60,021 nucleotides of DNA from a virus, in IMG/VR virus record IMGVR_UViG_3300042476_000858, positions 1-60,021 of that record. The stretch is one strand, 5' to 3'. Each line of letters opens with the position of its first letter. Position 1 is the stretch's first letter. The notes under the pieces are model-generated. The model did no database searches, was not told the origin of the DNA, and worked only from the letters and a program-made list of their open reading frames with translations. Positions 18,751-60,021 of this stretch are shown here, piece by piece. The position numbers and the translations under genes are program-made.

Positions 18751-19148
18751 GGCTAACATAGCGAATAGGTTTTATCAATGTCTAACCTGTTTAGAGTTGA
18801 TAAAACCCTATTTGTTTTAGGTATTAAATTCCCAACTAGGGGGGGTCTGAATCCTAAAATAACCCCCCTAGTTGTTACTGAAGTCCCGACCCCGTAGAGT
18901 TTCTAGGTTAACCCGTCAACGGGGTAGGTAGGGGGGTGGATAAGTTTTTTTCTACGGGGGAGACCTAATTCCCCCCGCACTGCCTTCGACTAACCAGTCT
19001 CTCATCTCCTAGGGGGGGTGGGGGGGGGGTAGGTCAGTTTTTTCTACAGGGGAGGACTAATTCTCCCCGCACTGCCCTCGACTAACCGTTATGTACAAGG
19101 TATGAGTATTTATACCTACCTCTAAAGATATAGCCCTGTTTTAACCCA

Positions 19149-19313
19149 TCAAGTGGGGGGGTTGCTTTGGTTTTTTATGTCCAGGGCATCAATTTCCCAG
19201 TTAGCCCTATCTACTCCAGTTTCGACTTGGCAAATCCCCCGCAAACCCCATGCTGGAATGGTTTGACGATGTTGGTGTCCCTTAAGCCCCAGTTTGACCC
19301 AAAATGTATCCAT
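19149..19313 (-). CDS. Small hidden gene inside the repeat region
   Basis: 54 residues, ATG at 19313 with AGGA nine bases upstream, starting MDTFWVKLGLKGHQHRQ and containing ICQVETGVDRANWEIDALDI. The composition is protein-like, unlike the surrounding low-complexity DNA. A late-like box (CACGCCCAAG, 19392-19406) lies about 84 nt upstream. No family recognised. Judged real from the start, ribosome site and composition. Confidence 0.5.
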   Translation of the reverse strand: MDTFWVKLGLKGHQHRQTIPAWGLRGICQVETGVDRANWEIDALDIKNQSNPPT

Positions 19314-19391
19314 TTATACATTTCCTAAAAATGGTTAGGTTAAATGTTTGTCCTAGAGTATAATTTGACCTCAAGACTCTTTCCCTATTAT

Positions 19392-19406
19392 AACTTGGGC
19401 GTGAAT
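19392..19406 (-). promoter_or_regulatory. Putative late promoter motif
   Basis: Minus strand reads ATTCACGCCCAAGTTATAAT, followed by the small gene at 19149-19313. Confidence 0.4.
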
Positions 19407-20569
19407 ATTTTGCAACCCTTAAAACACTGAACTTTTGACAGATTTTAAACTTGGTCTAACCATCATCAACAACGGCAATTAAGTCCTAATAGGGGAAGTC
19501 AGGGGGCAACCTGGAAACCTTGTCCTGTCTAGGTTTCACCTGGGTCTAAGGGGGCAAGTGGGGGGGTTCGGAGAGAATTTCAGATTCAAGTAACCCCCCT
19601 ACTTGTTAGACCCTTAGTACACTTGTACCAGACTGGGTTAAGCATGGCCAGACGGGGTTGAACATGACCAGACTGGGTTGAACATGGCCAGACTGGGTTT
19701 CATCTGAGTCTAAAGGGGAAACTAGGGGGGTGAAAAATGCCTCGAACCCCCCCAGTTGTGGATTTATATAGTACAAATGTATTAAACTGGGGTTGAACCG
19801 GGCTAAAACAGGTCAGACCAGGTGCGGAGTTATAACTGTCCGTTATAAAAACCAACCTAACCCCCCCTACCCCCCTAGTATAGAATAGTTGGGACTGGTT
19901 GGCTAAGACTGGTCTGGCAGGGTCAAACCCCGTACTATGTCTTTAGAAATAGGTATAAATACTCATACCCAAGGTAAAAGGGGGTCTGGGGGGTCAAACC
20001 CAGTTAAGCCCTGTTAAACTTGGGAGGGATGAAATAAGGGGGGTCGCCCTGAAAAACCAACCTAACCCCCCTACCCCCTTAGTAAGGAATGGCTGGGGCT
20101 GGTTGGCTTAGGCTGGGGCTGGCAGGGTCAAACCAGATTCAACCCAATCCGACCAAGTGGAATCAAGGAGGTCTCCATAAAAAAACCCAAGAACCCCCCC
20201 ACTTCCACCCTTAGCTAACTGGGTCAGGTTGGGTGGAAGTGGTTAAACGGGGTCTGGTCGGGTCAAACCCCGTACTATGTCTTTAGGGATAGGTATAAAT
20301 ACTCATACCCAAGGTAAAAGGGGGTCTAGGGGTCAAACCCAGTTAAGCCCTGTCAAACTTGGGGGGGATGGAATAGGAAGGGTCGCCCTGAAAAAAGAGA
20401 ACCCCCCCCTACCCCCCCCAGTTCATCTTTGTCTAGTACATTTGAACCACCCCCCAGCTTAACCGGGGCAGACTGGGGGTTGACAATAAAAAACCCCTTC
20501 CAAAGGGGTCAGGAGGGGTCAGGTAGGGTTGAGGATGGGTCAGACCCCGTTAGACCCCGTTAGACCCAA

Positions 20570-21061
20570 TTAATCCCAAAAGTCTGATGGTAAAGGTTCG
20601 TCTGAATCTTCACCATCGATTTTAGGTTCATACCTACCATCGGATAAATAAGGAGAAGACCCTATATCATGGTTCAAACGACACATAGCTTTGGTATCAG
20701 AATCCATACGACGTTCGGTATATACTTTAGGTCGTTGCCCTGGATTCATTTGGTCTTCAAGAGCTTGCATTAGGAGTTCTGCTTGATTCTTCCGATACCA
20801 TTCAGCCGCCCTGCGTAAGTGAATACCTTCTAGACGACTTAAATGTTCTTTAATCACAGCATGGACAGTCCCTTCATCTGCTCTATGTTTGGTATACTGT
20901 TTTCCATATTGGGAACGAAATCTATCTCTTAAAGTAGTCCAGGGAATATCGAACCGTTCTGCTAAAGTCCTAACAGACACCCCTCCCAGTTTATAGATTT
21001 GGAACAATTTTTTGGTTTGTTCCACGACCTCTTTGCTCATTCTAACGTCTTTCTTTCTCAT
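20570..21061 (-). CDS. HTH protein, candidate small terminase subunit
   Basis: 163 residues. A helix-turn-helix occupies about residues 25-50 (KLGGVSVRTLAERFDIPWTTLRDRFR); a helical middle (AVIKEHLSRLEGIHLRRAAEWY) and an acidic tail (DGEDSDEPLPSDFW) follow. Small terminases share a DNA-binding N-terminus, an oligomerising helical middle and an acidic end, and the gene has a late motif about 40 nt upstream and a GAGGG ribosome site. No large terminase is in the window, so a plain transcriptional regulator remains possible. The adjoining repeats could be its DNA target. Confidence 0.5.
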   Translation of the reverse strand: MRKKDVRMSKEVVEQTKKLFQIYKLGGVSVRTLAERFDIPWTTLRDRFRSQYGKQYTKHRADEGTVHAVIKEHLSRLEGIHLRRAAEWYRKNQAELLMQALEDQMNPGQRPKVYTERRMDSDTKAMCRLNHDIGSSPYLSDGRYEPKIDGEDSDEPLPSDFWD

Positions 21062-21095
21062 ATCCCTCTATAAATAGTTTTAGAATCCAATTTCT

Positions 21096-21114
21096 GGATT
21101 GGGCGTATAGTCTA
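21096..21114 (-). promoter_or_regulatory. Putative late promoter motif
   Basis: Minus strand reads AGACTATACGCCCAATCCAG, about 40 nt before the ATG at 21061. Confidence 0.55.
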
Positions 21115-21183
21115 AAAGGCTGACCCTGAGCCAATCTTAGGTATGATAAGACACTCAAAGAGCTTTAACCGAAGAAACATTTC

Positions 21184-21414
21184 TCAACAAATCCCCACCC
21201 CCCCCAACCCAAGATAATAATGGTAAAAATTACCATAACTCTTTTTCCACCTAAGATAATAATGGTGAAATTCACCATAACTCTTTTTCCCCCTCAACCC
21301 CAAATAATGGTAAAATCCACCATAACTCTTTTTCATAATTGTCTCACAATCCTTTAGGTTGACCAGAGAAAACCAATACCGACCAGGAGTTTGATATACA
21401 TCATTATACATCAT
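21184..21414 (-). CDS. Doubtful repeat-derived ORF
   Basis: 76 codons giving three copies of a K-K-S-Y-G-x-F-x-H-Y pattern (KKSYGGFYHY, KKSYGEFHHY, KKSYGNFYHY). The protein repeat simply follows the three DNA palindromes at 21220-21323, and no ribosome site is present, so it is more likely a by-product of the DNA repeats than a gene. Kept because the frame stays open across all three copies. Confidence 0.2.
   Translation of the reverse strand: MMYNDVYQTPGRYWFSLVNLKDCETIMKKSYGGFYHYLGLRGKKSYGEFHHYYLRWKKSYGNFYHYYLGLGGVGIC
21220..21323. repeat. Three tandem palindromic operators
   Basis: ATGGTAAAAATTACCAT (21220-21236), ATGGTGAAATTCACCAT (21262-21278, perfect dyad) and ATGGTAAAATCCACCAT (21307-21323), each followed by AACTCTTTTTC. 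Centres are 42 and 45 bp apart, about four helical turns. Looks like a repressor- or initiator-binding cluster. Confidence 0.65.
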
Positions 21415-21483
21415 TTTGGAGGCGAAATTAGGAAGGTTTAGGGTTAGGGGCTGATTTCAGCCACACAAAAAGCACTTTTTGAC

Positions 21484-21555
21484 CATATAATTATATAACT
21501 ATACAGTTATATATTAGTTCATTTGTACTGTTCAAGGGGGTTAAAGTTATCCACA
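21484..21555. other. Origin-like patch: AT-rich tract plus DnaA box
   Basis: A run of about 34 bp with almost only A and T (21484-21517) is followed by TTATCCACA (21547-21555), a perfect DnaA-box consensus. Together with the palindromes 160 bp away this resembles a DNA-unwinding element and initiator sites. Confidence 0.4.
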
Positions 21556-21624
21556 CCCATCACCCAAAAGGATGACCCCTTATCACCCATTAGAACACAA
21601 CAAAAATGTGTGGTTGTTGACGGT

Positions 21625-21864
21625 TTAATTACGGTCAGCAAATTCCCTAGGGTCTAATAAATCGAAATCGGATAAATCATCAAAGCGTTGAGGTTCAGGA
21701 GGTTGACGGTAAGCCAACAGTAAACCAACAATGGCTACAATAGTAATGGCAAAGACCATTAAAGAAGCTAAAAGCAATAAAAAAACCATTATGGAAAGGG
21801 GTTTGGGACTTAATAATAATATGCTTGCAATAAGGGGAATAGGTACAAAAAAATACCCACCCAT
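21625..21864 (-). CDS. Small membrane protein
   Basis: 79 residues. A hydrophobic N-terminal region with one or two transmembrane segments (PLIASILLLSP; MVFLLLLASLMVFAITIVAIVG) is followed by a polar acidic tail (RFDDLSDFDLLDPREFADR). An internal ATG at 21787 would give the second segment only. No ribosome site is obvious. A holin-like or envelope role is possible but not supported beyond topology. Confidence 0.5.
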   Translation of the reverse strand: MGGYFFVPIPLIASILLLSPKPLSIMVFLLLLASLMVFAITIVAIVGLLLAYRQPPEPQRFDDLSDFDLLDPREFADRN

Positions 21865-21911
21865 GACTGGGGGGCTTGGTTAAGGCTGAATCAGACCCAG
21901 ATTAGGACGGA

Positions 21912-22196
21912 TTAAGCAGTTAATTTAGTAACCAACGCCGAAACGAAGGAAACAGGGGTAGTAACACCAGCAGTAGCGGCAATTGCCTGAATAGCATTAA
22001 CGAAAGCGGTATCTTCGATAGCAAACTCTAAAAGAGCAATGATGGCTTGACGTTGAAGTAATTGGTCAGCATCAGCAGTACCATTCAAATCATAACCGTA
22101 AGAAGCACGAACGATGTCAACACCGGAGTTAACATATAAAGGGTCTAGTTGATAATGTCCACTTGCGGGGACTGGGGGGGCAAAAGTTAAAGCCAT
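21912..22196 (-). CDS. Small late protein, likely virion-associated
   Basis: 94 residues, Ala/Thr/Val-rich, starting MALTFAPPVPASGHYQLDPLYVNS and ending FVSALVTKLTA. It has a late motif 46 nt upstream, so it is grouped with structural genes. The composition suits a capsid decoration or tail protein. No family recognised. Confidence 0.6.
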   Translation of the reverse strand: MALTFAPPVPASGHYQLDPLYVNSGVDIVRASYGYDLNGTADADQLLQRQAIIALLEFAIEDTAFVNAIQAIAATAGVTTPVSFVSALVTKLTA

Positions 22197-22788: not shown

Positions 22789-22817
22789 TTGACAGACCAG
22801 ATGAACAATGCCATAAT
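22789..22817 (+). promoter_or_regulatory. Cassette promoter
   Basis: TTGACA, 17 bp, CATAAT with TGC extension directly before the -10. Confidence 0.8.
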
Positions 22818-22850
22818 AGACACATAAGCCGAAAAACAGGAGTCAAACAA

Positions 22851-23078
22851 GTGGACGAGAGCAAAATATTTATAGGTAATCTCCCTAAACCCAATGGGGA
22901 AATTTTCCCCCGATATATAGAACGGGGAGTAGGATTTTTCAGTCGCAGGGTGTACCATTTGCACGGTACTCAATTGGTGCATACAATCTATATGGGAAGT
23001 AACAGTTTTGACTTTAGTGAATACTGTCAAGAGTACAGGGGACGTTTGAGAGACAGTTATCCCCAATTCAACCCCTAG
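22851..23078 (+). CDS. Small cassette protein
   Basis: 75 residues from a GTG eight bases after AGGAG. Starts MDESKIFIGNLPKPNGEIFPRYI; a basic middle (FFSRRVYHLHG) and an end rich in aromatic and polar residues. The first ten residues look superficially like an RNA-recognition motif start, but the domain is too short to be one. No family recognised. Expressed from its own class 2 operator promoter, therefore probably early. Confidence 0.6.
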   Translation: MDESKIFIGNLPKPNGEIFPRYIERGVGFFSRRVYHLHGTQLVHTIYMGSNSFDFSEYCQEYRGRLRDSYPQFNP

Positions 23079-23141
23079 TGGACACTTCCTAAACTGTCCA
23101 CCCCAAAAAAGGTTGACAGTCCAGAAAAACAATGCCATAAT
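23077..23141 (+). promoter_or_regulatory. Class 2 operator plus cassette promoter
   Basis: AGTGGACA...TGTCCACC dyad (23077-23102), TTGACA (23113-23118), 17 bp, CATAAT (23136-23141). Confidence 0.8.
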
Positions 23142-23178
23142 AGACACATCAACCAAAACAAACAGGAAACCAAAAATC

Positions 23179-23481
23179 ATGAAGTACATAGTAGTTAAAA
23201 GCTTCGTAAGACTAATCGGGTACGGTTGGTACGGTCAAGAACAGTGTCAAGAGATTTTCCTAGACAGCTATCAATTAGATGGCATTGAGGAAAAAATAAA
23301 ACAGAATGGAGATGTTAAAGAAGGAATAGAGGAATGGTTACTGTATAATACTGGGGATTTTCAGGGAATGCCAACTGATTTTATGGCAGACTTGGAAATT
23401 AAATCGGAGAATGTAGTTATAGACTGGACAGACCCTGAAAGTGAATATAAATTCAGGGATTGTTACTCCGATGAAGACTAA
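23179..23481 (+). CDS. Cassette protein, family A (first of three paralogues)
   Basis: 100 residues from the ATG at 23179, behind a CAGGAAACC leader. It shares the plan MKY-V-KS, a Gln-Glu strand, I-(E/D)EK-(I/V), GDVKEGI-EW, DFMADLE and V-(I/V)DWTDPES with the products of 29894-30178 and 30833-31138. Acidic, no transmembrane segment. The longer frame upstream reads through the promoter and is not real. Family function unknown; small acidic early phage proteins often act on host or defence proteins, but nothing here proves that. Confidence 0.75.
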   Translation: MKYIVVKSFVRLIGYGWYGQEQCQEIFLDSYQLDGIEEKIKQNGDVKEGIEEWLLYNTGDFQGMPTDFMADLEIKSENVVIDWTDPESEYKFRDCYSDED

Positions 23482-23507
23482 TATAACCCGTAGCTAAGGG
23501 CTTAGAC

Positions 23508-23572
23508 AGTGGACACTTCCTAAACTGTCCACTCCAAAAAGACTTGACAGACCAGATGAAAAATGCCATAAT
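23508..23572 (+). promoter_or_regulatory. Class 2 operator plus cassette promoter
   Basis: AGTGGACA/TGTCCACT dyad (23508-23533), TTGACA (23544-23549), 17 bp, CATAAT (23567-23572). Confidence 0.8.
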
Positions 23573-23591
23573 GGATACCAACGAGGAAACA

Positions 23592-23795
23592 ATGACAAAA
23601 CTTAAAGAATTTACTGGAATACTTCGCATTGAATTGGAAGTAACCTTGCCCGCTTCTAGCAAAAAACAAGCCTTAGAATTGCTTGAAAACATCTACCCGG
23701 CTATCACGCTTAGTTTTGGGGATGAGAATGAGATGCCCAATCTGCTTGACTGGCGTGATAATCTCGATTATGTAGATTGGGAATTAGAGGATTAA
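23592..23795 (+). CDS. Small acidic cassette protein
   Basis: 67 residues from the ATG at 23592, directly after GAGGAAACA. The frame can be read back to 23544 only because the -35 box TTGACA supplies a TTG and the -10 region an ATG. Reads as two beta-alpha units (LRIELEVTLPASSKKQALELLENIYP) with an acidic aromatic end (DYVDWELED). No family recognised. Confidence 0.65.
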   Translation: MTKLKEFTGILRIELEVTLPASSKKQALELLENIYPAITLSFGDENEMPNLLDWRDNLDYVDWELED

Positions 23796-23830
23796 TTATC
23801 AGTCATCAGTTATCAGTTATCGGTAAACAG
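23796..23830. repeat. ATCAGTTATC tandem, host-type repeat
   Basis: Overlapping copies of TCAGTTATCAGTTATC. An inverted version occurs near 54180-54200. Repeats of this kind are abundant between genes of many cyanobacteria. Confidence 0.6.
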
Positions 23831-23852
23831 TAGAAACACAAAAGAGGGCAAA

Positions 23853-24125
23853 ATGTCGGAAAAATTTGTTATTTGTTTTGAAGTTCGCAACTCTGAAAAT
23901 CGCTTAATTAAGGATACAACTGGCGAGATTCAAAATCGATTAAGCTTTGATTTAGAAGTCAAGAATAATGCACAACTAAAAAGCTTCTTAAAGTCATATT
24001 ATACTACTTTAGAAGCTTGGATGCCAGAAAATCAAATAAAGATTAAGGCTTTTGTTCATTCTAAAATTTCTCGAACTTATATGGAGTTATTTTGCTTCGA
24101 TAGCAAGGGATTTCATACCTACTAG
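23853..24125 (+). CDS. Hypothetical cassette protein without a private promoter
   Basis: 90 residues with AGAGGG before the ATG. Starts MSEKFVICFEVRNSENRLIK; alternating strands and helices, ending LFCFDSKGFHTY. No TTGACA promoter is visible, and the upstream 60 bp is the host-type repeat, so it is probably read from the previous promoter. AT-rich. No family recognised. Confidence 0.6.
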   Translation: MSEKFVICFEVRNSENRLIKDTTGEIQNRLSFDLEVKNNAQLKSFLKSYYTTLEAWMPENQIKIKAFVHSKISRTYMELFCFDSKGFHTY

Positions 24126-24184
24126 CCCAATCTAACCCAATCTAACCCTATCTAACCCAATCTAAACCAATCTAAACCAATCAA
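24125..24184. repeat. Decamer tandem repeat (CCAATCTAAC)
   Basis: About six copies of a 10-bp unit, C(C/A)CAATCTAA-type, ending just before the ribosome site of the next gene. Ten-bp spacing puts every copy on the same face of the helix. Weaker copies occur at 24896-24920. Confidence 0.75.
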
Positions 24185-24195
24185 GGAAGGAAAAA

Positions 24196-24813
24196 ATGAA
24201 AGCGAAACACCTGAAATTATGCCAAGATAACTTCTTTGGCATAAACTACGAAGGATATTATGTTGTCTATTCACAGTCCGATGCGTCGGATTTAATGGAT
24301 ATGGCGAACTATCGAGTGCTATCCCGTTTTATTAACAATGAGGACTGTATAGAAGCTAGTTTTCGTGGGTTTTTCGGACGGTTTACAGCCATCCTGTTAA
24401 AAAAGGATAGTCCCCTAGTGGAAGAGATTGACAACCTTATTGAGAAGACAAAGACCGTTTATTACCTGCTAGACGAACAAGTGTACGGTGAAATACTAAA
24501 TGAAAAATGGATGGAATATTGGAACGAGACAGGATGTAATGAGTGTGCTAAGGAAATTTTGGAGATATTACCAGAATTAGAGGACAAAATAGCCTATAAG
24601 TATCGTCATGAAATAGACCTATTGGTATCCCCAGAAGACTTACTAAAGGTCATAAATCCATTCTTAGACTATCTAAACGATGAAACAGTTAGTATATGTG
24701 AAGTATATCAGGGTTTACATGGTAGTTTCGGATTTGAAGATTTAAGCACACCACAACGGTCGGATTTACTTGATGCACTAATGTTACTCGTTGGGAAGAC
24801 GGTATCCAATTAG
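24196..24813 (+). CDS. Hypothetical acidic cassette protein
   Basis: 205 residues with AAGGAAGGA upstream of the ATG. N-terminal half mixed (KLCQDNFFGINYEGYYVVYSQ), C-terminal half helical and strongly acidic (CAKEILEILPELEDKIAYKY; LLKVINPFLDYLNDETV). Largest gene of this part of the island. No transmembrane segment, no known motif. Confidence 0.7.
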   Translation: MKAKHLKLCQDNFFGINYEGYYVVYSQSDASDLMDMANYRVLSRFINNEDCIEASFRGFFGRFTAILLKKDSPLVEEIDNLIEKTKTVYYLLDEQVYGEILNEKWMEYWNETGCNECAKEILEILPELEDKIAYKYRHEIDLLVSPEDLLKVINPFLDYLNDETVSICEVYQGLHGSFGFEDLSTPQRSDLLDALMLLVGKTVSN

Positions 24814-24840
24814 AATTAACCCTGTCCTAACCTTAATCAA

Positions 24841-24876
24841 GGGTTAACCAAAATTTAACCTAGTTAACCCTTGACA
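24841..24876 (+). promoter_or_regulatory. Class 1 operator with orphan -35 box
   Basis: GGGTTAACC...GTTAACCC dyad followed by TTGACA (24871-24876), but no -10-like hexamer at the expected distance; decamer repeats occupy the place. Confidence 0.6.
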
Positions 24877-24933
24877 AGTAGTGAATCTTCCTAACCCAAT
24901 CTAACCCCATTTAACCCTTACCAATTAAAACGT

Positions 24934-25206
24934 ATGACTCATTCAAGATTACCAATTCTGTCCAAAATTTTGCCCGATTTATCAGATTGGGGAGAAGGAA
25001 TTATTTCCGATGAACAATGGTTAAAAAAATCTAAAGGTTTTTATGAATACCTAGTCGGAAAACGATGCCCCCATTGCGGTTCATTTAATGTTCGGAAACG
25101 AGCCACTAAAAAGGATGTAAACGGAAAACCTTACTCCGTGTTCCAGTGTAATGATTGCAAAAAAACCTACTCTGGCAAGAAATTTAATCTTGACACACAG
25201 ACTTAA
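24934..25206 (+). CDS. Zinc-ribbon protein
   Basis: 90 residues. A four-cysteine ribbon fills the C-terminal half: CPHCGSFNVRKRATKK followed by CNDCKKTYSGKKF. The pattern with Val-Arg-Lys and a Tyr-Ser-Val-Phe-Gln strand between the pairs matches zinc ribbons of transposase N-termini and small nucleic-acid-binding proteins. The N-terminal 50 residues are helical (SDEQWLKKSKGFYEYLVGK). Probably binds nucleic acid; whether it is a phage regulator or a transposase fragment is open. Confidence 0.65.
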   Translation: MTHSRLPILSKILPDLSDWGEGIISDEQWLKKSKGFYEYLVGKRCPHCGSFNVRKRATKKDVNGKPYSVFQCNDCKKTYSGKKFNLDTQT

Positions 25207-25237
25207 ACCCTTAAAACCAAGCACAGGAGCCAAAAAT

Positions 25238-25630
25238 ATGCCCCAATTTAACCCTAACCACGTCCCTGATGATGTTTTCCCCTTTATAAGTGGTTATTTA
25301 ACGGCCGCAGAATGGTGTTGTCAGGGGGAAAATGGAGAGGATTTCCCTAAAATGGGTCACGGTTTCACCAAAAAATCACTACTGTCCGCACGGGATGATG
25401 TAGAACGATTCGTAAGCGAAAACCAAGAGGATATTAATATCTTTCTAGAGTCTGGGTTTAGCGAAGACCACGTTGGTCATAACTTCTATCTAAACCGTAA
25501 TCGTTATGGTTCTGGGTTCTGGGATGAGAAAGGTTGTGATAAGGCGGTCTTAGACCGACTTTCTGAAGCTTCAAAAAATTTTGGTGAGTGCGACTCTATG
25601 GCCATTCGTGGATGGATTTACTTAGAATAG
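25238..25630 (+). CDS. Conserved phage protein of unknown function
   Basis: 130 residues from the ATG at 25238 with AGGAG upstream. The C-terminal phrase VGHNFYLNRNRYGSGFWDEKG resembles a widespread phage and plasmid family that reads (A/V)GHDFWLTRN-HGAGFWDR; the start of that family also has 'Y-TA-W' as here (GYLTAAEWC). Function not established. The upstream extension overlaps the zinc-ribbon gene and is not used. Confidence 0.7.
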   Translation: MPQFNPNHVPDDVFPFISGYLTAAEWCCQGENGEDFPKMGHGFTKKSLLSARDDVERFVSENQEDINIFLESGFSEDHVGHNFYLNRNRYGSGFWDEKGCDKAVLDRLSEASKNFGECDSMAIRGWIYLE

Positions 25631-25674
25631 AGTTCAACTAAGTTAAACTCAATCCAACCTAGTTAAGTAGGGAG

Positions 25675-25727
25675 TGTGACAGTTCCTTAACTGTCCACTA
25701 GACTTTACCCTTAGACAATGCCATAAT
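25675..25727 (+). promoter_or_regulatory. Variant class 2 operator plus promoter
   Basis: GTGTGACAGTTCCTTAACTGTCCAC, weak -35 TAGACT (25699-25704), CATAAT (25722-25727). Confidence 0.6.
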
Positions 25728-25756
25728 AGTAACATACCAACCAAAGAGGAAACATT

Positions 25757-26083
25757 ATGACTACTGACAACTCCCCGACAAAAGTAATCTTCCGTAAATG
25801 GGTAAAATACTCAAATAGTATTATCGCCATTTTTCCAGAAATCGTCAGTACGGATAACCCTTATGAATGTCTATCATGGGTATATGTAGGAGGGCATGGT
25901 TCATGTGACCCCCATTGGGTCATTAGCGATACTGTACCGGCAAGTCCCGATGAATATGCTTGGGATAAGGAAGTCCTAGAAAAACAATACGGCTATCAAC
26001 TCAAGGTAATAACCCGAAACCGTCGGGAGTTCCTAGAAATCAGAGAAGCTGAAATAGCTCGCATGGCACAGTTTCTAGTCTAA
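25757..26083 (+). CDS. Cassette protein, family B (copy 1)
   Basis: 108 residues. Strongly similar to the neighbouring 26181 product: TKVIFRKW, IIAIFPEIVS, a CLSW-YVG-HGSCDP strand, WDK-(E/Y)-LE and GYQLKVITRNR. The family pattern 'KVIFRKW...IALFPE...HGAADP' is common in phages and bacteria as a small protein of unknown function. Own promoter; good GAGGAAAC ribosome site. Confidence 0.75.
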   Translation: MTTDNSPTKVIFRKWVKYSNSIIAIFPEIVSTDNPYECLSWVYVGGHGSCDPHWVISDTVPASPDEYAWDKEVLEKQYGYQLKVITRNRREFLEIREAEIARMAQFLV

Positions 26084-26098
26084 CCTCAACTTAATCAC

Positions 26099-26156
26099 GG
26101 GTTAACCAAAATTTAACCAAGTTAACCCTTGACAGTCCCCCGAAAAGTGCTATAAT
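26099..26156 (+). promoter_or_regulatory. Class 1 operator plus cassette promoter
   Basis: GGGTTAACC (26099-26107)...GTTAACCC (26121-26128), TTGACA (26129-26134), 16 bp, TATAAT (26151-26156). The right arm touches the -35 box, so a bound protein would block polymerase. Confidence 0.8.
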
Positions 26157-26180
26157 GAAAACATCACGAGGAAACCAATT

Positions 26181-26537
26181 ATGACCACTGAAAACCCCAC
26201 AAAAGTAATCTTCCGTAAATGGGAAAAATACACTTGGCGTATTATCGCCATTTTTCCAGAAATCGTCAGTTGCGATAACCCCTATAAATGTCTATCATGG
26301 GAATATGTAGGGGAGCATGGTTCATGTGACCCCTGTGAGGTTATTAACAATACTTTCCCTGCCACTTTTTATGATTATTCATGGGATAAAAAATACCTAG
26401 AGGAACACTACGGGTATCAACTCAAGGTGATAACCCGTAACCGTCCGGAGTTCCTAGAAACCAGAAAAACACACATAGACTTAATCAGGTTAGCCCTTGA
26501 CACACCGCTTCAAAACGGCTATAAAAGACCTGCATAA
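26181..26537 (+). CDS. Cassette protein, family B (copy 2)
   Basis: 118 residues, the tandem paralogue of 25757-26083; N-terminal two thirds nearly identical, C-terminus diverged and longer (HIDLIRLALDTPLQNGYKRPA). The final residues overlap sequence resembling another promoter (LTRLALDT encoded near TTGACA), suggesting that the 3' end was rebuilt by recombination inside a promoter repeat. Confidence 0.75.
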   Translation: MTTENPTKVIFRKWEKYTWRIIAIFPEIVSCDNPYKCLSWEYVGEHGSCDPCEVINNTFPATFYDYSWDKKYLEEHYGYQLKVITRNRPEFLETRKTHIDLIRLALDTPLQNGYKRPA

Positions 26538-26559
26538 ACTTAACCTAGTTAAGTAGGGA

Positions 26560-26614
26560 GTGTGACAGTTCCTTAACTGTCCACTAGACTTTACCCCTTA
26601 AACAATGCCATAAT
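26560..26614 (+). promoter_or_regulatory. Variant class 2 operator plus promoter
   Basis: Near-copy of 25675-25727: GTGTGACAGTTCC dyad and CATAAT at 26609-26614, with weak -35 (TAGACT) and an 18-bp spacer. Confidence 0.6.
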
Positions 26615-26644
26615 AGTAACAACCAACCAAAAAGGAAACCGATT

Positions 26645-26947
26645 ATGACTACTTACCTCCGGTATCTAGAAACACTGTCAACCAGTAAATTACAAGAAAT
26701 CTTTGCTGAAAACTTAACTTGTGAGCAATTACTAGCAGAAGATGGATTAGAAATTTCCGACTTAGAAAACCCACTGGGGGACGACTTGTACTACGATGAA
26801 AAAATATTCTATCAGAATTTATCCACAATGGAAGACGACCGAGATTTTTTGATAGATGCTATAAGTGATTGGGTAGAGGCATTTCCACCTAACCGAAAGG
26901 GTTCTGCCGAGTTCTTTTTAACACCCTACGGAACATTTAAGTGCTAA
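26645..26947 (+). CDS. Cassette protein, family C (copy 1)
   Basis: 100 residues, acidic: YLETLSTSKLQEIFAE, CEQLLAEDGLEISDLENPLGD, DFLIDAISDWVEAFPPN. Nearly the same as the 27496 product (about 70% identical by eye). The N-terminal helix pair and the DLENPLG turn are kept. No family recognised. Confidence 0.75.
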   Translation: MTTYLRYLETLSTSKLQEIFAENLTCEQLLAEDGLEISDLENPLGDDLYYDEKIFYQNLSTMEDDRDFLIDAISDWVEAFPPNRKGSAEFFLTPYGTFKC

Positions 26948-26958
26948 AACTTAATCAA

Positions 26959-27017
26959 GGGTTAACCAAAATTTAACCAAGTTAACCCTTGACAGACCCC
27001 CGAAAAAATGCCATAAT
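26959..27017 (+). promoter_or_regulatory. Class 1 operator plus cassette promoter
   Basis: GGGTTAACC...GTTAACCC dyad, TTGACA (26989-26994), 17 bp, CATAAT (27012-27017). Confidence 0.8.
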
Positions 27018-27048
27018 GGACACATACCAACCAACGAGGAAAAAAAAA

Positions 27049-27402
27049 ATGAGAGAATTTAAAGAATGGTTTGAGGAAAATCTTTACGAGTATGCTAAAG
27101 ATATTGCAAGTTACGGAGCAGACATGGGTTTTCCCTATATATCCTATACATCGGACTGTGTTAAGTTATGGGAAAAGTACGGGGTTTCAATCTGGAAATA
27201 TGCAGTTGAACAAGCGAAACAATTGGGCTATACCAACGTGGCTAAAATGATTTCCTCTTTTAGCCGGGCTGATATGTTAGAAAGTCTAGATTCGTTTTAT
27301 AACCTCATGGTCTGGTATGCCTGTGAGGAAATAGCCCGTGAAATAACCGACCAGCAGGATGAAGATGAATATGAGGATGAAGATGAAGATTCCTTAGACT
27401 AA
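27049..27402 (+). CDS. Cassette protein, DUF7222-like
   Basis: 117 residues from the ATG at 27049; the longer frame to 26989 again begins in the TTGACA box. Mostly helical (EWFEENLYEYAKDIASYGADMGFPYISYTSD) with LMVWYACEEIAREI near the end and an extreme acidic tail of Asp/Glu. The layout recalls a phage family (DUF7222-like) that has a 'YYxDTxxFYDxYxxEI' middle and a 'Lx-W-AxEE-Axxi' end; that recollection is moderate. A truncated copy lies at 27806-27910. Confidence 0.7.
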   Translation: MREFKEWFEENLYEYAKDIASYGADMGFPYISYTSDCVKLWEKYGVSIWKYAVEQAKQLGYTNVAKMISSFSRADMLESLDSFYNLMVWYACEEIAREITDQQDEDEYEDEDEDSLD

Positions 27403-27412
27403 CCTTAACTCA

Positions 27413-27471
27413 GGGTTAACCAAAATTTAACCAAGTTAACCCTTGACAGTCCCGAAAAAAACTGCTGTAAT
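27413..27471 (+). promoter_or_regulatory. Class 1 operator plus cassette promoter
   Basis: Dyad, TTGACA (27443-27448), 17 bp, TGTAAT (27466-27471). Confidence 0.8.
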
Positions 27472-27495
27472 AGTGACATTACAAGGAAACCGATT

Positions 27496-27804
27496 ATGTT
27501 TACTTACCTCTCGTATCTAGAAACACTGTCAACCAGTGAATTACAAGAAATCTTTGCTCAAATCCGAACCTGTGAGCAGTTACTAGCGGAAGATGGATTA
27601 GAAATTTCCGACTTAGAAAACCCACTGGGAGACGTACACTTGTTCTACTGGGATGACAAAGTATTCTATCAGAATTTATCCCGAATGACAGGCGACCGAG
27701 ATTTATTGATAGATGCTATAAGTGAATGGGTAGAGGCATTCCCACCTAACCAAGAGGATATTACAGAGTTCTATCTAAGCCCCTACGGAAGATTTAAATT
27801 TTAA
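27496..27804 (+). CDS. Cassette protein, family C (copy 2)
   Basis: 102 residues, tandem paralogue of 26645-26947 with local changes (ENLT to QIRT, DDLYYDEK to DVHLFYWDDK). Same operator class as its upstream neighbour. The stop lies at the junction with the truncated 27049-like fragment, so the whole unit looks like a duplication. Confidence 0.75.
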   Translation: MFTYLSYLETLSTSELQEIFAQIRTCEQLLAEDGLEISDLENPLGDVHLFYWDDKVFYQNLSRMTGDRDLLIDAISEWVEAFPPNQEDITEFYLSPYGRFKF

Positions 27805-27805
27805 A

Positions 27806-27910
27806 CGGGCTGATATGTTAGAGGTCTGGTATGCCTGTGAGGAAATAGCCCGTGAAATAACCGACCAGCAGGATGAAGATGAAGATGAGGATGAAGATTC
27901 CTTAGACTAA
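27806..27910 (+). pseudogene. Truncated copy of the 27049 gene
   Basis: The sequence GGGCTGATATGTTAGA, then VWYACEEIAREITDQQDED-type coding, repeats the 3' end of 27049-27402 with a deletion of about 30 bp and an in-frame acidic-tail contraction. No start or promoter of its own. Confidence 0.85.
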
Positions 27911-27920
27911 ACTCAACTCA

Positions 27921-27979
27921 GGGTTAACCAAAATTTAACCAAGTTAACCCTTGACAGTCTAGAAAAAAACTGCTATAAT
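27921..27979 (+). promoter_or_regulatory. Class 1 operator plus consensus promoter
   Basis: Dyad, TTGACA (27951-27956), 17 bp, TGC-extended TATAAT (27974-27979): perfect sigma-70 consensus. Confidence 0.9.
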
Positions 27980-28009
27980 AGTAACAACCAACCAAAAAGG
28001 AAACCGATT

Positions 28010-28387
28010 ATGTCTCAATTTAGAATCGTCTATCAGTATGTTACACCAGAGTCAGCATTCGATTGGGGATATTTGGAACAAGGGTATTATTTCAAGGGTA
28101 CTCACTACGAATCTGATTATTCTTCTGAGGATTACTGGCAAGAAATATCGGAAATAGGCTTGGATAATCTAATCAAATTAGCGCACAGTTTAGGGATTGT
28201 CGCTAACAGTTCTAACGACTTAAGCAATTGGTTTTCCAGTGAAGACCCAGAAGACCCAGACCCAGACCAATACTACTATACATCCTACTCCCTACATCTT
28301 CGTTCAGACCGTTACGATTCTCTTTTCCGGCGAGTCAATCTGTTATTGTTTGAATATGATTTTAACTACTGTGTACATCAAGGATAA
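28010..28387 (+). CDS. Acidic cassette protein
   Basis: 125 residues. Aromatic and acidic (WGYLEQGYYFKGTHYESDYS, a DPEDPDPDQYYY stretch) with leucine-rich ends. No transmembrane segment, no known motif. Such Asp/Glu-rich, Tyr-rich proteins include DNA mimics, but that is only a thought. Its promoter is the strongest in the island. Confidence 0.7.
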   Translation: MSQFRIVYQYVTPESAFDWGYLEQGYYFKGTHYESDYSSEDYWQEISEIGLDNLIKLAHSLGIVANSSNDLSNWFSSEDPEDPDPDQYYYTSYSLHLRSDRYDSLFRRVNLLLFEYDFNYCVHQG

Positions 28388-28401
28388 TTAACCCCTGCAA
28401 T

Positions 28402-28443
28402 ACTCCCTAACCCAACCAATAGGATTAGGGAGTCCATTGCAGG
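28402..28443 (+). terminator. Hairpin followed by ATTGCAGG
   Basis: ACTCCCTAACCC, eight-base loop, GGATTAGGGAGT (12 pairs), then CCATTGCAGG. Further ATTGCAGG copies follow in this 260-bp gap, and a 65-bp block (TTCACCTATGCCTATAC) shared with 29149 and 31930. Confidence 0.6.
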
Positions 28444-28584
28444 TATGTGTAGGGGAGTCCATTGCAGGTATGTGAGTAAGTAGGTTCACCTATGCCTATA
28501 CGGGTTATGTGAGGGTAAAGATGGACGACGGAGTGGATAAGTTTCTCTTATACCCACTGATAAGAAATTCTAATAGTTGAGGGC

Positions 28585-28614
28585 TTGACAATACCTAGTA
28601 AACCCTGATATAGT
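28585..28614 (+). promoter_or_regulatory. Cassette promoter, class 3 context
   Basis: TTGACA (28585-28590), 18 bp, TATAGT (28609-28614). The stretch GAGGGCTTGACAATACC is shared with 34262 and, in part, 32854. An upstream ATAAGAAATTCTAAT half-site replaces the usual dyad. Confidence 0.75.
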
Positions 28615-28646
28615 AGTAACATACCGAACCAAAAGGGAGCCAAAAA

Positions 28647-29039
28647 ATGTTATTCATACTAAGCGAAAGATTCCAAGACAACCTAGTGCGTGAGGGGGAA
28701 TACATTAGTATCTATAGACTGGATGATGTAATATACCTAGTCCCTACTTTAGCATTTTTTCAAGAATTAGAGGAAAATCCAGAGTTTTTCGATAAACCTG
28801 CGGATTACTTATGGTATGACTTGTTAGAGGATGCGTTATGCGACGAATGGTTATCTCCTCGTGTTGAGGGCATGGGAGATTACTTTTTCCTGACTGATGA
28901 TTATTACTGTGATTATGATGGTGAGTTAAGTATAATTTATGACCGATTATGGTTCATAGACTTAGCTAATCATTTCCCTTATTCATTGGTAGAAATTCTA
29001 AAAACCAAAGGGTATATTGACTTATACCGGTTTGAATAG
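28647..29039 (+). CDS. Acidic cassette protein
   Basis: 130 residues, strongly acidic and aromatic: YLVPTLAFFQELEENPEFFDKPADY, LLEDALCDEWLSPRV, DDYYCDYDGELSIIYDRLWF. Resembles the 28010 product in composition but does not align clearly. No family recognised. Confidence 0.7.
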   Translation: MLFILSERFQDNLVREGEYISIYRLDDVIYLVPTLAFFQELEENPEFFDKPADYLWYDLLEDALCDEWLSPRVEGMGDYFFLTDDYYCDYDGELSIIYDRLWFIDLANHFPYSLVEILKTKGYIDLYRFE

Positions 29040-29047
29040 TTAACTCA

Positions 29048-29106
29048 GGGTTAACCAAAATTTAAACTGGTTAACCCTTGACAGGCCCTAGAAATATTGC
29101 CACAAT
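29048..29106 (+). promoter_or_regulatory. Class 1 operator with degenerate promoter
   Basis: GGTTAACC...GGTTAACCC dyad, TTGACA (29078-29083), 17 bp, CACAAT (29101-29106). No gene follows; a hairpin with TGAAAAC/GTTTTCA arms (29106-29140) and ATTGCAGG come instead. Confidence 0.6.
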
Positions 29107-29219
29107 GAAAACCCTAACCTCGTTGGTTGGTGTGTTTTCATTGCAGGTGTGTGTGTGTAGGTGAACTCCCCCTACACCTATACGGGTTATGCGTGGGTAA
29201 TGATGGACGACTCTGATAA

Positions 29220-29307
29220 GCTAATCTTATATAAGTTACCATTATCAATTCCATAAGAAAGATTAATGAATGAACTACTTGACAGACCCTAGAAATATTG
29301 CTATAGT
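29220..29307 (+). promoter_or_regulatory. Class 4 operator plus cassette promoter
   Basis: ATAAGCTAATCTTATATAAG (one array-type unit), a CCATAAGAAAGATTAATGA element, TTGACA (29279-29284), 17 bp, TATAGT (29302-29307). Confidence 0.75.
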
Positions 29308-29349
29308 AGTAACATGAAAGAAAACAAGCCCCCCTGATAAGTACCAACC

Positions 29350-29691
29350 ATGATTTACCACTATTTGATAGGGTTTCCTAAAGATTTCCAGTTTCCTATA
29401 GCTAAACGTAGCCTACGGTACAGCAACCATGCACGGATAGAGGCCATGACAGACGGTGCTATTGATTTACCGACTGTCATAAAACCCTCAAGCGGTAAGT
29501 TGATAGAATTAAACTTGACCAGAGAAGTTCCCCAATATGTTTACCGTTTTCAATACTCAAGCACCAAAGACTTGGTCATGGTGCTTTCTGCCAAAACACC
29601 CCTACACTGGACAGTCGTTACGGTCTGGTTAAACAATACTATCGATGCCCATGAAAGCCTAGACCGTACACGGTACGCTATACCTGCCTAG
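29350..29691 (+). CDS. Cassette protein with DUF4258-like features
   Basis: 113 residues. The phrase LRYSNHARIEAMTD resembles the 'S-HA-xR' start of DUF4258 or RelE-like small toxin folds, followed by strands (SGKLIELNL, YRFQYSSTKDLVMVLS) and TVVTVWLN. That order fits a small beta-alpha toxin or RNase fold, and RelE-type proteins often lack obvious catalytic motifs. Identification is tentative. A standalone toxin-like protein in a phage early region would be notable. Confidence 0.6.
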   Translation: MIYHYLIGFPKDFQFPIAKRSLRYSNHARIEAMTDGAIDLPTVIKPSSGKLIELNLTREVPQYVYRFQYSSTKDLVMVLSAKTPLHWTVVTVWLNNTIDAHESLDRTRYAIPA

Positions 29692-29789
29692 AAAAAATAA
29701 TCAAGAGTTAACCCTAACCCATTAGTAACTATTATAACCCTGATAAGTTATCCTAATACATTAACTCTTGAAAAAAGTTTAAAGCAGAC

Positions 29790-29854
29790 AGTGGACACTT
29801 TCTAAACTGTCCACTCCCAAAAGGGTTGACAAGGGTTAGGAACAATGCCATAAT
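29790..29854 (+). promoter_or_regulatory. Class 2 operator plus cassette promoter
   Basis: AGTGGACA (29790-29797)...TGTCCACT (29808-29815), TTGACA (29826-29831), 17 bp, CATAAT (29849-29854). Confidence 0.8.
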
Positions 29855-29893
29855 AGAAACATAAACCGAAACAAACCAACGAGGAAAGCGAAA

Positions 29894-30178
29894 ATGAAGT
29901 ACACAGTAGTTAAAAGTTTAATCAGATGGTATGACCCATTACAGTGTCTAGGAATTACTCTAGACAGCTATCAATTAATGGAAATTGAGGAAAAAGTTAA
30001 AGCAGGCCATGAAGTAAGGGGGGTTGTCAAAGAATGGATAATAGATAATGCTGGTGATTATTCTGGAATTACTGACTTTATGGCCGACTTAGAATTTAGC
30101 TCTGGGAATGTAGTTATAGACTGGACAGACCCTGAAAGTGAGAATAAATTCTGTGATTGTTACTATGGGGATTACTAA
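29894..30178 (+). CDS. Cassette protein, family A (copy 2)
   Basis: 94 residues, paralogue of 23179-23481: MKYTVVKSLIRW, LDSYQLMEIEEKV, DFMADLEF, VVIDWTDPESENKF. Same operator class 2 as the first copy, so operator and gene travelled together. Ends in acidic CDCYYGDY. Confidence 0.75.
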   Translation: MKYTVVKSLIRWYDPLQCLGITLDSYQLMEIEEKVKAGHEVRGVVKEWIIDNAGDYSGITDFMADLEFSSGNVVIDWTDPESENKFCDCYYGDY

Positions 30179-30203
30179 ATAACCCGTAACTAGGGGCTTA
30201 GAA

Positions 30204-30730: not shown

Positions 30731-30767
30731 TTATCAATCCCATAAGAAAGATTAATGATTTACCTAC

Positions 30768-31712: not shown

Positions 31713-31713
31713 C

Positions 31714-57456: not shown

Positions 57457-57542
57457 TTTTCTCCTGCTAGTCTTTGTTTAACTGGTTTTACATCTAGGTT
57501 TATTTCTTCCATTAAACCGATAAGTTTAAGAACTGCATTTTC
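57457..57542 (-). pseudogene. Remnant of a 57823-like 3' end
   Basis: The minus strand reads ENAVLKLIGLMEEINLDVKP, then VKQRLAGEK and a stop, matching the last about 28 residues of the 57823 product with a few changes. Its 5' part has been replaced by the antitoxin-like gene. Confidence 0.8.
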
Positions 57543-57719
57543 CTAATCATCATCAAAAGGAAGAGCATCGGTATCTGACAAAGCATTAGCCTCGATTTCT
57601 GCATCACTCATCGATTTAACTCGCTCCCAATCGGTTAAATCGCTTAAATCTTGCTTTTCCTCTTTTGTGTTAAGAATACCCATCTTGGGGGCTACTCTCT
57701 TGATACTTTCTTCGCTCAC
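57543..57719 (-). CDS. BrnA-like orphan antitoxin
   Basis: 58 residues from a GTG with AGGAGAGC upstream. LTDWERVKSMSDAEIEANAL, then DTDALPFDDD matches the C-terminal pattern of BrnA-type antitoxins (DWERV..M-DEEI, a D-x-D-x-P end). No BrnT toxin gene is next to it. It is inserted in the middle of a duplicated gene. Could neutralise a host toxin during infection, or be a fragment of a host locus. Confidence 0.6.
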   Translation of the reverse strand: MSEESIKRVAPKMGILNTKEEKQDLSDLTDWERVKSMSDAEIEANALSDTDALPFDDD

Positions 57720-57822
57720 GTTCGTTTGCTCTCCTAGCACTAATCAATCGGCAAGTTTCCCCTCTTATACTATAAGACAACATAACAGATTATCCCGTTT
57801 AATTGTCCCAGTAAACACATCC

Positions 57823-58272
57823 TTATTTCTCTCCTGCGAGTCTTTGTTTAACTGGTTCTACATCTAGGTTTAATTCTTCCATTAGACTAATAAGTTTTAG
57901 AACCGCATTTTCTCGGTCTACTCCGTCTGAGGCAGGTAGATTTCTAATTGTTTTTTCTAGTTTCTCCACCCCATATTTCAGTGCGATGGTTGTTCTTCGT
58001 CCTTTTTCTAAATTCCCGCACTCCTCATCATAGAGATATAACATAGAACTTGTACCCACAGCACAGGGTATAATCCCGTACCAGTTTGCGTATTTTCTCC
58101 CGTTATTCTGTTTTATCTCTCTTTTTACCTTCCACTCACCACTTGGCCAGGTTGAGTTTACTACCTCGACATAGGCTAAGGTTCTAGTGACCCTTTTTAC
58201 CTCAAATACTAGGAAAGAGCCATTTCTTGTCTTAACTCCTAATCGGTCTCCTACTTTAAGTTCATTTTGCAT
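57823..58272 (-). CDS. Hypothetical protein
   Basis: 149 residues from the ATG at 58272 with AAGAGTAAAGA before it; the longer frame to 58326 lacks a ribosome site. SH3-like beginning (ELKVGDRLGVKT), middle NNGRKYANWYGIIPCAVGTS and helical end (ENAVLKLISLMEELNLDVE). Paralogue of 57013-57450 and source of the remnant at 57457. Confidence 0.65.
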   Translation of the reverse strand: MQNELKVGDRLGVKTRNGSFLVFEVKRVTRTLAYVEVVNSTWPSGEWKVKREIKQNNGRKYANWYGIIPCAVGTSSMLYLYDEECGNLEKGRRTTIALKYGVEKLEKTIRNLPASDGVDRENAVLKLISLMEELNLDVEPVKQRLAGEK

Positions 58273-58382
58273 TTCTTTACTCTTGTAACTTTCCCTAAGT
58301 ATAGCTCCTGACCTACCCCTTGTCAACCCTTAGCCGCATAGGGTTTTCTCTATGCTCTTTTGGGTTTGTATTTATTTTTCCC

Positions 58383-58398
58383 TATACTCGCCCATTCT
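58383..58398 (+). promoter_or_regulatory. Putative late promoter on the plus strand
   Basis: TATACTCGCCCATTCTAAAG, 32 nt before the GTG at 58425; the plus-strand late motif for the appendage genes. Confidence 0.45.
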
Positions 58399-58424
58399 AA
58401 AGCTGTCCCCTCCTTTTTAATAAA

Positions 58425-58664
58425 GTGCGTTGGCTTTATTTCCCTACTTCGTCAATCCCTAGTAATGGCACTTTTATCTATTGTCAATTAGCCGATAGTG
58501 CCATTAGTGGTATGCGACCCACACCTCAACCTGCTGATGGAACTTTACTTTATTGCCAACTTCAAACTTCTTTATTAACAGACTGGCGACCGCCCACACA
58601 GCCAGCAAATGGTACTTTACTTTATTGCTCTCAAGATATTAACCAATTTAATAGAACGCCATGA
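58425..58664 (+). CDS. Repeat-containing appendage protein
   Basis: 79 residues from a GTG. Three repeats of PxxGT(F/L)(I/L)YCQ: SIPSNGTFIYCQL, PQPADGTLLYCQL, TQPANGTLLYCSQ. Cysteines in each repeat. Its stop overlaps the next ATG by four bases. Short fibre or attachment-domain adaptor is an inference. Confidence 0.5.
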   Translation: MRWLYFPTSSIPSNGTFIYCQLADSAISGMRPTPQPADGTLLYCQLQTSLLTDWRPPTQPANGTLLYCSQDINQFNRTP

Positions 58665-59533
58665 GTCAACCAAATCTGATTACCTCTGATAACGTCGGAA
58701 ACTACTATATGGGTTTTCGTTCCGATTTATTTGCTTATGATACTCGCATTTCTGGTGGTAATAACGCACCCAACTTAAGAGACTTAATTAATCAGTTAGG
58801 GTCTGGATTAGCCGTTTCTAACAGCACAATAAGTATTAGTTTTAAATTGCCACAGGCTTTTGATACTTCTAACAATCCTACTACTACTCTAAATGGAAGA
58901 TTCAGGGAAAATTTGCTCTATACTAGCAATACCTCAAGCCTGAGTAGTGCTTTGTTTTATCAGGTTCCGGGCGGGGGTAGTGAATTTAATTTAAGTAATG
59001 CTGGTGCTTGGTATTTTGTTGTTAATAGCTTTTCGGTCTCAATGTTCAGATGTAATGTCAGTGGCAACGCATTAGATAACTCTAATTACTTTTTTAGACA
59101 GGTAGGATGGGCTAAAAATCCCCTATACACCGGGACAAACTACCCACTAAATGCTTATTATTATTTTTTAAATTCTTCCTCTAACTCAAGGGGGGGTGGT
59201 CGTCCTACCCTGCCCAATATCGATACTAGAACGGCTCTAAGAGTACCTACAGGAACAAGTGCCGACTCCATTGCCAATTACTCAATAACTTGTCAAACTT
59301 CTACACCGGGGGCAAATACTACCGACTTAGTGCTTAGGGACGATGCCAGTCCCAATAGAGCTATTGGTGTAGCATCCAATCTCCTAAAAACATCCCTAGC
59401 CATCCCCGTTGGTCAAATTTATCGTAATACGGGGGTAGACCCTGATGGTAGTGATAACCCTTTTTGGATATGTGTTGGGGTTATGGGTAGTGAGAGGATT
59501 CTAATGAGAGTAAGGACTCTAAACCTAACCTAA
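58661..59533 (+). CDS. Tail appendage or fibre protein
   Basis: 290 residues, beta-rich and Ser/Asn/Gly-rich (TSNTSSLSSALFYQVPGGGS, SVSMFRCNVSGNALDNSNY). Starts MSQPNLITSDNVGNYYMGFRS. Typical of phage fibres. Coupled to the previous gene by an ATGA overlap. Confidence 0.6.
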   Translation: MSQPNLITSDNVGNYYMGFRSDLFAYDTRISGGNNAPNLRDLINQLGSGLAVSNSTISISFKLPQAFDTSNNPTTTLNGRFRENLLYTSNTSSLSSALFYQVPGGGSEFNLSNAGAWYFVVNSFSVSMFRCNVSGNALDNSNYFFRQVGWAKNPLYTGTNYPLNAYYYFLNSSSNSRGGGRPTLPNIDTRTALRVPTGTSADSIANYSITCQTSTPGANTTDLVLRDDASPNRAIGVASNLLKTSLAIPVGQIYRNTGVDPDGSDNPFWICVGVMGSERILMRVRTLNLT

Positions 59534-59545
59534 TTTTTGGGTACT

Positions 59546-59851
59546 ATGACTAAAACTATTCGACAAACCTTTTCTAATTGGAGGAAATCTTCTAATGGAC
59601 AATCGGCTATCCAGATTCTCAAACGTAGTCAAAGATTCCTTTGCCCAAGCTGTTTACAACATCTTCCCCAAGACTACCACGTTCACCACTTATTCCCAAT
59701 TTCTAAAATGGATTCTTCCAACTCTAATTTAGCTATTGATATTAACAATTTAGTTCTCCTTTGTCCTAAATGCAATTTATCTCAGGGTGCAAAAATAGAT
59801 ACCCGTTTTTCTGATTTAGAACCAGAGGATAGGGTATCTATTGATGGTTAA
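59546..59851 (+). CDS. HNH nuclease
   Basis: About 101 residues from the ATG at 59546. CPSCLQHLPQDYHVHHLFPI, NNLVLLCPKCNLSQGAK: two CxxC pairs for zinc and H-H...N...C of the HNH core. A small, stand-alone HNH; could aid packaging or be a homing enzyme. It follows the fibre gene by twelve bases. Confidence 0.75.
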   Translation: MTKTIRQTFSNWRKSSNGQSAIQILKRSQRFLCPSCLQHLPQDYHVHHLFPISKMDSSNSNLAIDINNLVLLCPKCNLSQGAKIDTRFSDLEPEDRVSIDG

Positions 59852-59863
59852 CCTAGCTAATTA

Positions 59864-60021
59864 TTAGTCTGGTATAGAGTTATAGTCTAAGTAGGAACCA
59901 GCTTGAATGGGGTCTAGAATTTCTCTTTCCTCGATGAAACTACCAAGACAGGTTAAACTTTCGAGGGTGAGAGACTCTCTGGGGTGGGCATCAATAAGTT
60001 TTATAAACTGGTCATCCTGCT
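59864..60021 (-). CDS. Hypothetical protein, C-terminal end (cut by window edge)
   Basis: About 52 residues visible, ending IQAGSYLDYNSIPD. Helical (QFIKLIDAHPRESLTLESL). Convergent with the HNH gene. Too little for family assignment. Confidence 0.5.
   Translation of the reverse strand, partial: QDDQFIKLIDAHPRESLTLESLTCLGSFIEEREILDPIQAGSYLDYNSIPD

Follow-up and report, generated by a model that had tools for sequence, protein, structure and literature searches.

In phage lambda, the sites of the replication origin are located within the initiator gene O. The locus analysed here, in which three palindromes (hereafter the trio) lie in a non-coding gap, resembles the lambda-type origin in that dyad-symmetric sites are arranged in tandem and an AT-rich stretch is close by. 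It differs in that the sites are non-coding with a spacing of 42-45 bp and that a protein of the O/P type was not recognised; the iterons were found neither inside nor next to a gene for an O-type initiator, as they are non-coding and the neighbouring proteins match no initiator family. The consensus DnaA box, TTATCCACA, occurs at the locus in one perfect copy, as in a DnaA-dependent origin, but there is no cluster of boxes. In comparison with a headful pac site, the locus has repeats beside the gene of a small helix-turn-helix (HTH) protein, gp48, and the TerL of Mic1 is P22-like (PMC7156551), but gp48 of the present phage has no terminase match.

The gap between gp48/gp49 and gp50 of Microcystis phage Mic1 (MN013189) has the same gene neighbours as the present locus and, like it, a boundary of early and late genes, a switch of skew, dyads of GTATAAATACT and a copy of AGGTTAAATGTTT, but it has no trio, its tandem array consists of 51-bp GTATAAATACT units, a TnpB-type gene (gp49) lies within it, and the order of the cement gene and gp48 relative to the gap is different. 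According to PMC11237433, the early genes gp49-gp73 of Mic1 begin at the corresponding boundary. No title on a replication origin of Mic1 or another Microcystis phage was found in the literature searched, and the sections used of PMC7156551 and PMC11237433 do not discuss one.

The locus and its elements

The window, i.e., the whole stretch of DNA analysed, is a virus contig with a record length of 60,021 bases, from a virus of cyanobacteria related to Mic1. The full genome of this phage (hereafter the window phage) is that of a siphophage of roughly 102 kb, and was analysed as a circle of 102,205 bases in which contig G001 fills the part absent from the window (overlap, 48,462 bases; identity, 99.99-100%). 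The proteins of the window phage are mostly colinear with those of Mic1 (identity: major capsid protein (MCP), 82%; NrdA, 66%; parts of DNA polymerase gamma, 62-73%; gp48, 55%; cement protein, 70%). The features of the window referred to below are as follows.

18751..21911, no strand: best position interval of the skew up-switch, candidate origin region (4-switch fit, likelihood profile, homologous Mic1 switch)
18751..20569, no strand: gap A, repeat-rich and non-coding, left of gp48, sharing 12-mers with the gap of Mic1
19105..19115, strand -: GTATAAATACT dyad, conserved with the gap of Mic1
19337..19349, strand +: AGGTTAAATGTTT, common to the gap of Mic1
19953..19963, strand +: GTATAAATACT dyad
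20293..20303, strand +: GTATAAATACT dyad
20570..21061, strand -: gp48, HTH protein, homologue of Mic1_48 (55%), earlier small-terminase candidate
21207..21248, strand +: repeat unit 1, with dyad 21220-21236
21249..21290, strand +: repeat unit 2, with dyad 21262-21278
21294..21335, strand +: repeat unit 3, with dyad 21307-21323
21449..21462, no strand: further dyad GGCTGA-TT-TCAGCC, read from the sequence
21466..21481, no strand: further dyad CAAAAAG-CA-CTTTTTG
21491..21514, no strand: AT-rich dyad, 10/12 pairs, a perfect 24-bp palindrome in relative G004
21625..21789, strand -: small membrane-protein-like ORF, corresponding to Mic1_46 in position and length
21912..22196, strand -: cement protein gene, homologue of Mic1_47 (70%)
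22789..22817, strand +: first early-type promoter TTGACA-17-CATAAT of its family
57500..60021, no strand: second, stronger skew up-switch

A sequence-only reading of this DNA had proposed a possible origin from three equally spaced palindromes, a 34-bp AT-only tract and a DnaA box beside a repeat-rich region and a candidate small-terminase gene. The three palindromes are present as 17-bp dyads with the outer arms ATGGT/ACCAT, embedded in 42-nt direct repeats; the spacing is nearly equal (start-to-start distances, 42 and 45), but not exactly so. The repeat-rich region next to them is also present (gap A). When the whole 102-kb phage was scanned with a matrix built from the trio copies, those copies scored 49.8-52.1, the next-best sites scored 17.9 (second copy, reverse strand) and 13.5, and the maximum in three shuffles was 10.0; the trio is well beyond chance. 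The exact repeat unit was found in five viral contigs (three copies in four of them and two copies in one), the units being retained whole, in 2 or 3 copies, within the clade. The unit had no exact match across a genome collection of 84,980 species, and the trio, restricted to the clade of the window phage, is absent from Mic1. The repeat periods are multiples of 3, and the ORFs over the trio are of 76 aa on the - strand and 45 aa on the + strand; a coding role was nevertheless judged unlikely because the outer five bases of the dyads are kept while the inner ones vary (an A..T pair in copy 1 becomes G..C in copy 2). The trio is a lineage-specific array of putative protein-binding sites, which may be initiator sites, a gp48 operator or pac.

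The AT-only tract of 34 bp was not found; uninterrupted A+T extends over no more than 14 bp at this place (21485-21498), and the best 34-bp stretch is 30/34 A+T, a cluster of which the window has only one other. The AT-rich element is a 22-base dyad, TATATAACT-ATAC-AGTTATATA (21492-21513), of which the counterpart in relative G004 is the perfect palindrome listed above. The DnaA box is present at 21547-21555 on the + strand. There are three perfect copies of the box in the 60 kb vs 0.75 by shuffling, and at least three were obtained in 3.5% of 200 shuffles. The copy at 21547 is isolated, and no cluster was found at the trio locus among the 9 TTWTNCACA sites on the 102-kb circle (those closest to it have their starts at 17,989 and 26,819); the gap of Mic1 has no perfect TTATCCACA. 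The lone box is weak evidence for an origin.

No support was obtained for the small-terminase label of the gene left of the trio, the homologue of Mic1_48, for which no terminase family was matched at E<=1 (PHROGs and Pfam). The protein has 163 aa with an N-terminal HTH (HTH_psq; E 2e-4 for this protein, best 4e-5 among three members) and predicted helices, the AlphaFold model was poor (pLDDT, 47.6), and no PDB relative was found (best E, 0.24). Right of the trio are the small membrane-protein-like ORF, for which no alignment to Mic1_46 was found, the cement gene, and beyond it a gap rich in repeats, in which strong promoters of the early type, TTGACA-17-CATAAT, are present (22789, 23113 and 23544). 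On the circle this promoter occurs eight times in near-identical form, always on the + strand and within 22.8-32.5 kb (22789-32442); Mic1 has nine, of which eight are on the + strand in the early and neighbouring region. Note that a palindrome-like sequence, GTACACTTGTAC, occurs in four copies (22266, 22368, 22569 and 19617) in the gaps flanking gp48 and the cement gene. A reading of the motif TATAAATA as a T4-type late promoter was also considered and rejected; its numbers were near expectation (11 vs 11.4 expected in Mic1 and 13 vs 8.6 in the window phage), and no copy precedes a same-strand ORF of the mechanical ORF set by 150 bp or less.

Strand skew and elements shared with Mic1

For the complete Mic1 genome, the cumulative skew had its GC minimum at 52,597 and its AT minimum at 52,600, with the GC maximum roughly opposite (9,491). 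Both minima are in the gene-free gap a short way upstream of Mic1_48, whose counterpart in the window phage neighbours the trio, and the GC range was reached in 0 of 300 block permutations. At four-fold sites, with gene strand as a covariate, the GC switch was placed within 54-56 kb, where a gene-free gap precedes gp50, and the four-fold-site switch of a Mic1-like 96.8-kb contig agrees with it. Genes on the same strand reverse the sign of their skew across the switch; a strand-bias up-switch independent of gene strand is present in Mic1.

In the window phage, the plain detrended GC curve of the 102-kb circle is lowest near 60.5 kb, one-origin models put the origin at 58-64 kb, with 21.4 kb rejected by 14.7 log units for GC and 21.8 for AT, and with GC3 alone there was no switch at 20 kb. 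A joint GC and AT segmentation of four-fold sites was performed with correction for gene strand (mechanical ORFs of at least 80 aa; 106 in the one-origin fits). Four switches were preferred (up at 20, down at 36, up at 60 and down at 0/102 kb; BIC, 198.9 vs 225.7), and the gain of four over two switches was 29.5 log units, while none of 60 permutations within strand and segment gained more than 17.3. Since the gain exceeded this control, the one-origin model was replaced by the joint 4-switch model; the rejection of 21.4 kb under the one-origin reading was retained as counter-evidence to an origin there. The best placement of the first up-switch is 18.75-21.9 kb, which brackets the trio, and that of the second is 57.5-60 kb. 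The skew plot of the complete genome, which the sequence-only reading had named as a check, favours the locus in part, by this up-switch and by the Mic1 minimum beside Mic1_48, and disfavours it in that the deepest minimum is near 60 kb. Because + genes are scarce on the immediate left of 20 kb and - genes on its immediate right, an effect of early vs late expression on skew is only partly separable, the expression class being partly confounded with position.

We read the two up-switches as two origins, or as one old and one new origin; given the second up-switch at 57.5-60 kb, the site at 18.75-21.9 kb may be an ancestral or a secondary origin of the window phage. No obvious origin-like array was seen at the strongest up-switch (57500-60021 and beyond), and a repeat gap (gap B, 63.1-64.3 kb) is a few kb away. 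Gap B was considered as the second origin and is not favoured, because a switch at 63.5 kb has a likelihood 7.1 units lower than one at the best place, near 59 kb. Gaps A and B have about 300 bp in common at 71%.

All seven genome copies of GTATAAATACT in Mic1 are inside its gap, where four make up a 51-base tandem array, and the array is kept in three Mic1-related contigs (2, 2 and 4 copies). The window phage has 6 copies (3 in gap A at 19.1-20.3 kb, 1 in a gap at 63.6 kb and 2 inside late-region ORFs), and the Mic1-like contig G002 has 4 (three at gap ends and one at 56.5 kb); the expected numbers are about 0.1 for GTATAAATACT and about 0.02 for AGGTTAAATGTTT. In Mic1 and the window phage, AGGTYAAATGTTT is confined to these gaps; a scan for AGGTYAAATGTTT-N3-7-CTAG gave 43 stretches, known relatives included, most of which were estimated as chance. 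The proportion of 12-mers shared with the gap of Mic1 was 4.0% for gap A, 4.4% for the gap before gp50, 2.5% for the trio gap and 1.2% for gap B, vs a baseline of 1.15% for other non-coding DNA, so that the enrichment is modest and not confined to gap A. Sequence in common with the gap of Mic1 is mostly in the gaps neighbouring the trio gap. As the conserved GTATAAATACT and AGGTTAAATGTTT elements sit in gap A, the better-conserved candidates for origin elements are left of the trio. The trio and the dyads of gap A are both tandem and both within the skew interval, and skew cannot choose between them.

Candidate roles of the trio

The synteny with Mic1 and the skew make the locus a reasonable origin candidate. 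That an origin is near here, as had been proposed, is moderately supported, and one within 18.75-21.9 kb is rather probable; the assignment of the origin to the three proposed elements themselves fared worse, as the single-origin fits reject 21.4 kb and the trio is absent in Mic1, and the trio is only tentatively regarded as part of an origin in this interval. The repeats, their conservation in the clade, the strand-independent skew switch in two lineages and the dyads that the neighbouring gap has in common with Mic1 are observed features; initiation, protein binding and a role of the trio in both belong to our main reading, i.e., an origin region at 18.75-21.9 kb with the trio as an array of initiator sites, to which we assign a probability of roughly 0.45. 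This value and the wording used for the alternatives are rough shares for the main role of the trio and for the region, and the alternatives partly overlap (an origin in gap A is compatible with the trio as an operator). Under the main reading, the origin region would be located where late genes running leftward meet early genes running rightward, and forks would depart from it both ways. The trio would be an array of dyad-symmetric protein-binding sites inside this region, and melting might take place at the AT-rich dyad, at a distance of about 170 bp. A phage-encoded initiator, and not host DnaA, would bind the tandem dyads, gp48 being a candidate DNA-binding protein, and would recruit the phage replication proteins.

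The trio may instead be an operator array through which a phage HTH protein, most simply gp48, sets the expression of gp48 or of the late operon, in which case the origin, if near, would be in gap A. We hold this possible with considerable doubt: the array is upstream of gp48 (about 160 bp separate its start codon and the first dyad), dyads of 17 bp in which the outer bases are fixed and the inner ones vary resemble sites of HTH dimers, gp48 has an HTH, and it is gap A that contains the elements conserved with Mic1; on the other hand, Mic1 and its relatives have gp48 without the array, and in the promoter scan no sigma-70-like site overlapped the trio and no clear promoter was interleaved with the dyads. 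It is unlikely that the trio is a packaging start recognised by gp48 as the small terminase, since Mic1 has no trio, TerL is tens of kb distant, gp48 has neither a small-terminase match nor a PDB relative at the values given above, and its AlphaFold model was too poor for comparison. The same protein would suit this role in its length, N-terminal HTH and predicted helices, and its gene is on the late strand beside head genes; none of the 7 other proteins around TerL was found to be a small terminase, and the TerL of Mic1 clusters with those of P22-like headful phages (PMC7156551).

Transcription terminators or RNA-end hairpins are a very improbable role for the dyads. In a scan for terminator-like structures dyad 2 qualified on both strands, and on the + strand each dyad is followed by CTCTTTTTC, but the stems are weak (-3.5 to -7.8 kcal/mol on the + strand), dyad 3 folds no better than shuffles (28/200), the T run begins only after AACTC, and no + gene ends just upstream. 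A partition site can hardly be credited at all. Mic1 is reported to have ParA, ParB and a parS-like palindrome, but the proposed site is elsewhere, at 8828-8850 (both from PMC7156551), and ParA and ParB genes were not found together in the window phage: a tblastn search of the 102-kb circle with Mic1 ParA gave no match at 1e-6, and the counterpart of Mic1 'ParB' (Mic1_82; 27%) has no Pfam match at E<=0.01.

Returning to the trio as an array of initiator sites, a wider and rather unlikely proposal is that Mic1-like cyanophages initiate replication at the gene-free early/late boundary by means of tandem dyads and an undescribed phage initiator, and that the lineage of the window phage gained the trio and a second origin about 40 kb away, its forks now being co-directional with the replication genes. 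If true, this would be a visible case of the addition of an origin and a change of initiator sites inside one phage group. Since skew in two diverged lineages supports an interval of 3 kb and candidate binding sites are named, origin mapping is directly testable in this group, which also offers a test case for the shift of origins and strand bias after genome rearrangement.

Other features of the two genomes

In the window, an odd phage cargo is encoded at 34321-35994 on the + strand, with matches to vanadium chloroperoxidase N-terminal, PAP2 and CARDB (E 1e-7 to 3e-6). A 37-bp tandem repeat (10.6 copies at 98%) is present at 30335-30727, where contig G001 of the same phage ends. The DNA polymerase gamma-like gene at 44868-48492 on the - strand is split in two, with an HNH endonuclease gene (NUMOD4) between the parts; no Rfam match to an intron was obtained there at the gathering score. 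Outside the window, at 65.2-67.1 kb of the circle (G001; L024, 14675-16501), two related proteins are encoded side by side, of the kind annotated as 'serine/threonine kinase' in Mic1 (gp45). In Mic1 itself, one mostly non-coding sequence of several hundred bases, detected via the matches of contig G002, is present in three places of MN013189 (approximately 22.0-23.0, 72.3-73.5 and 88.2-89.6 kb).
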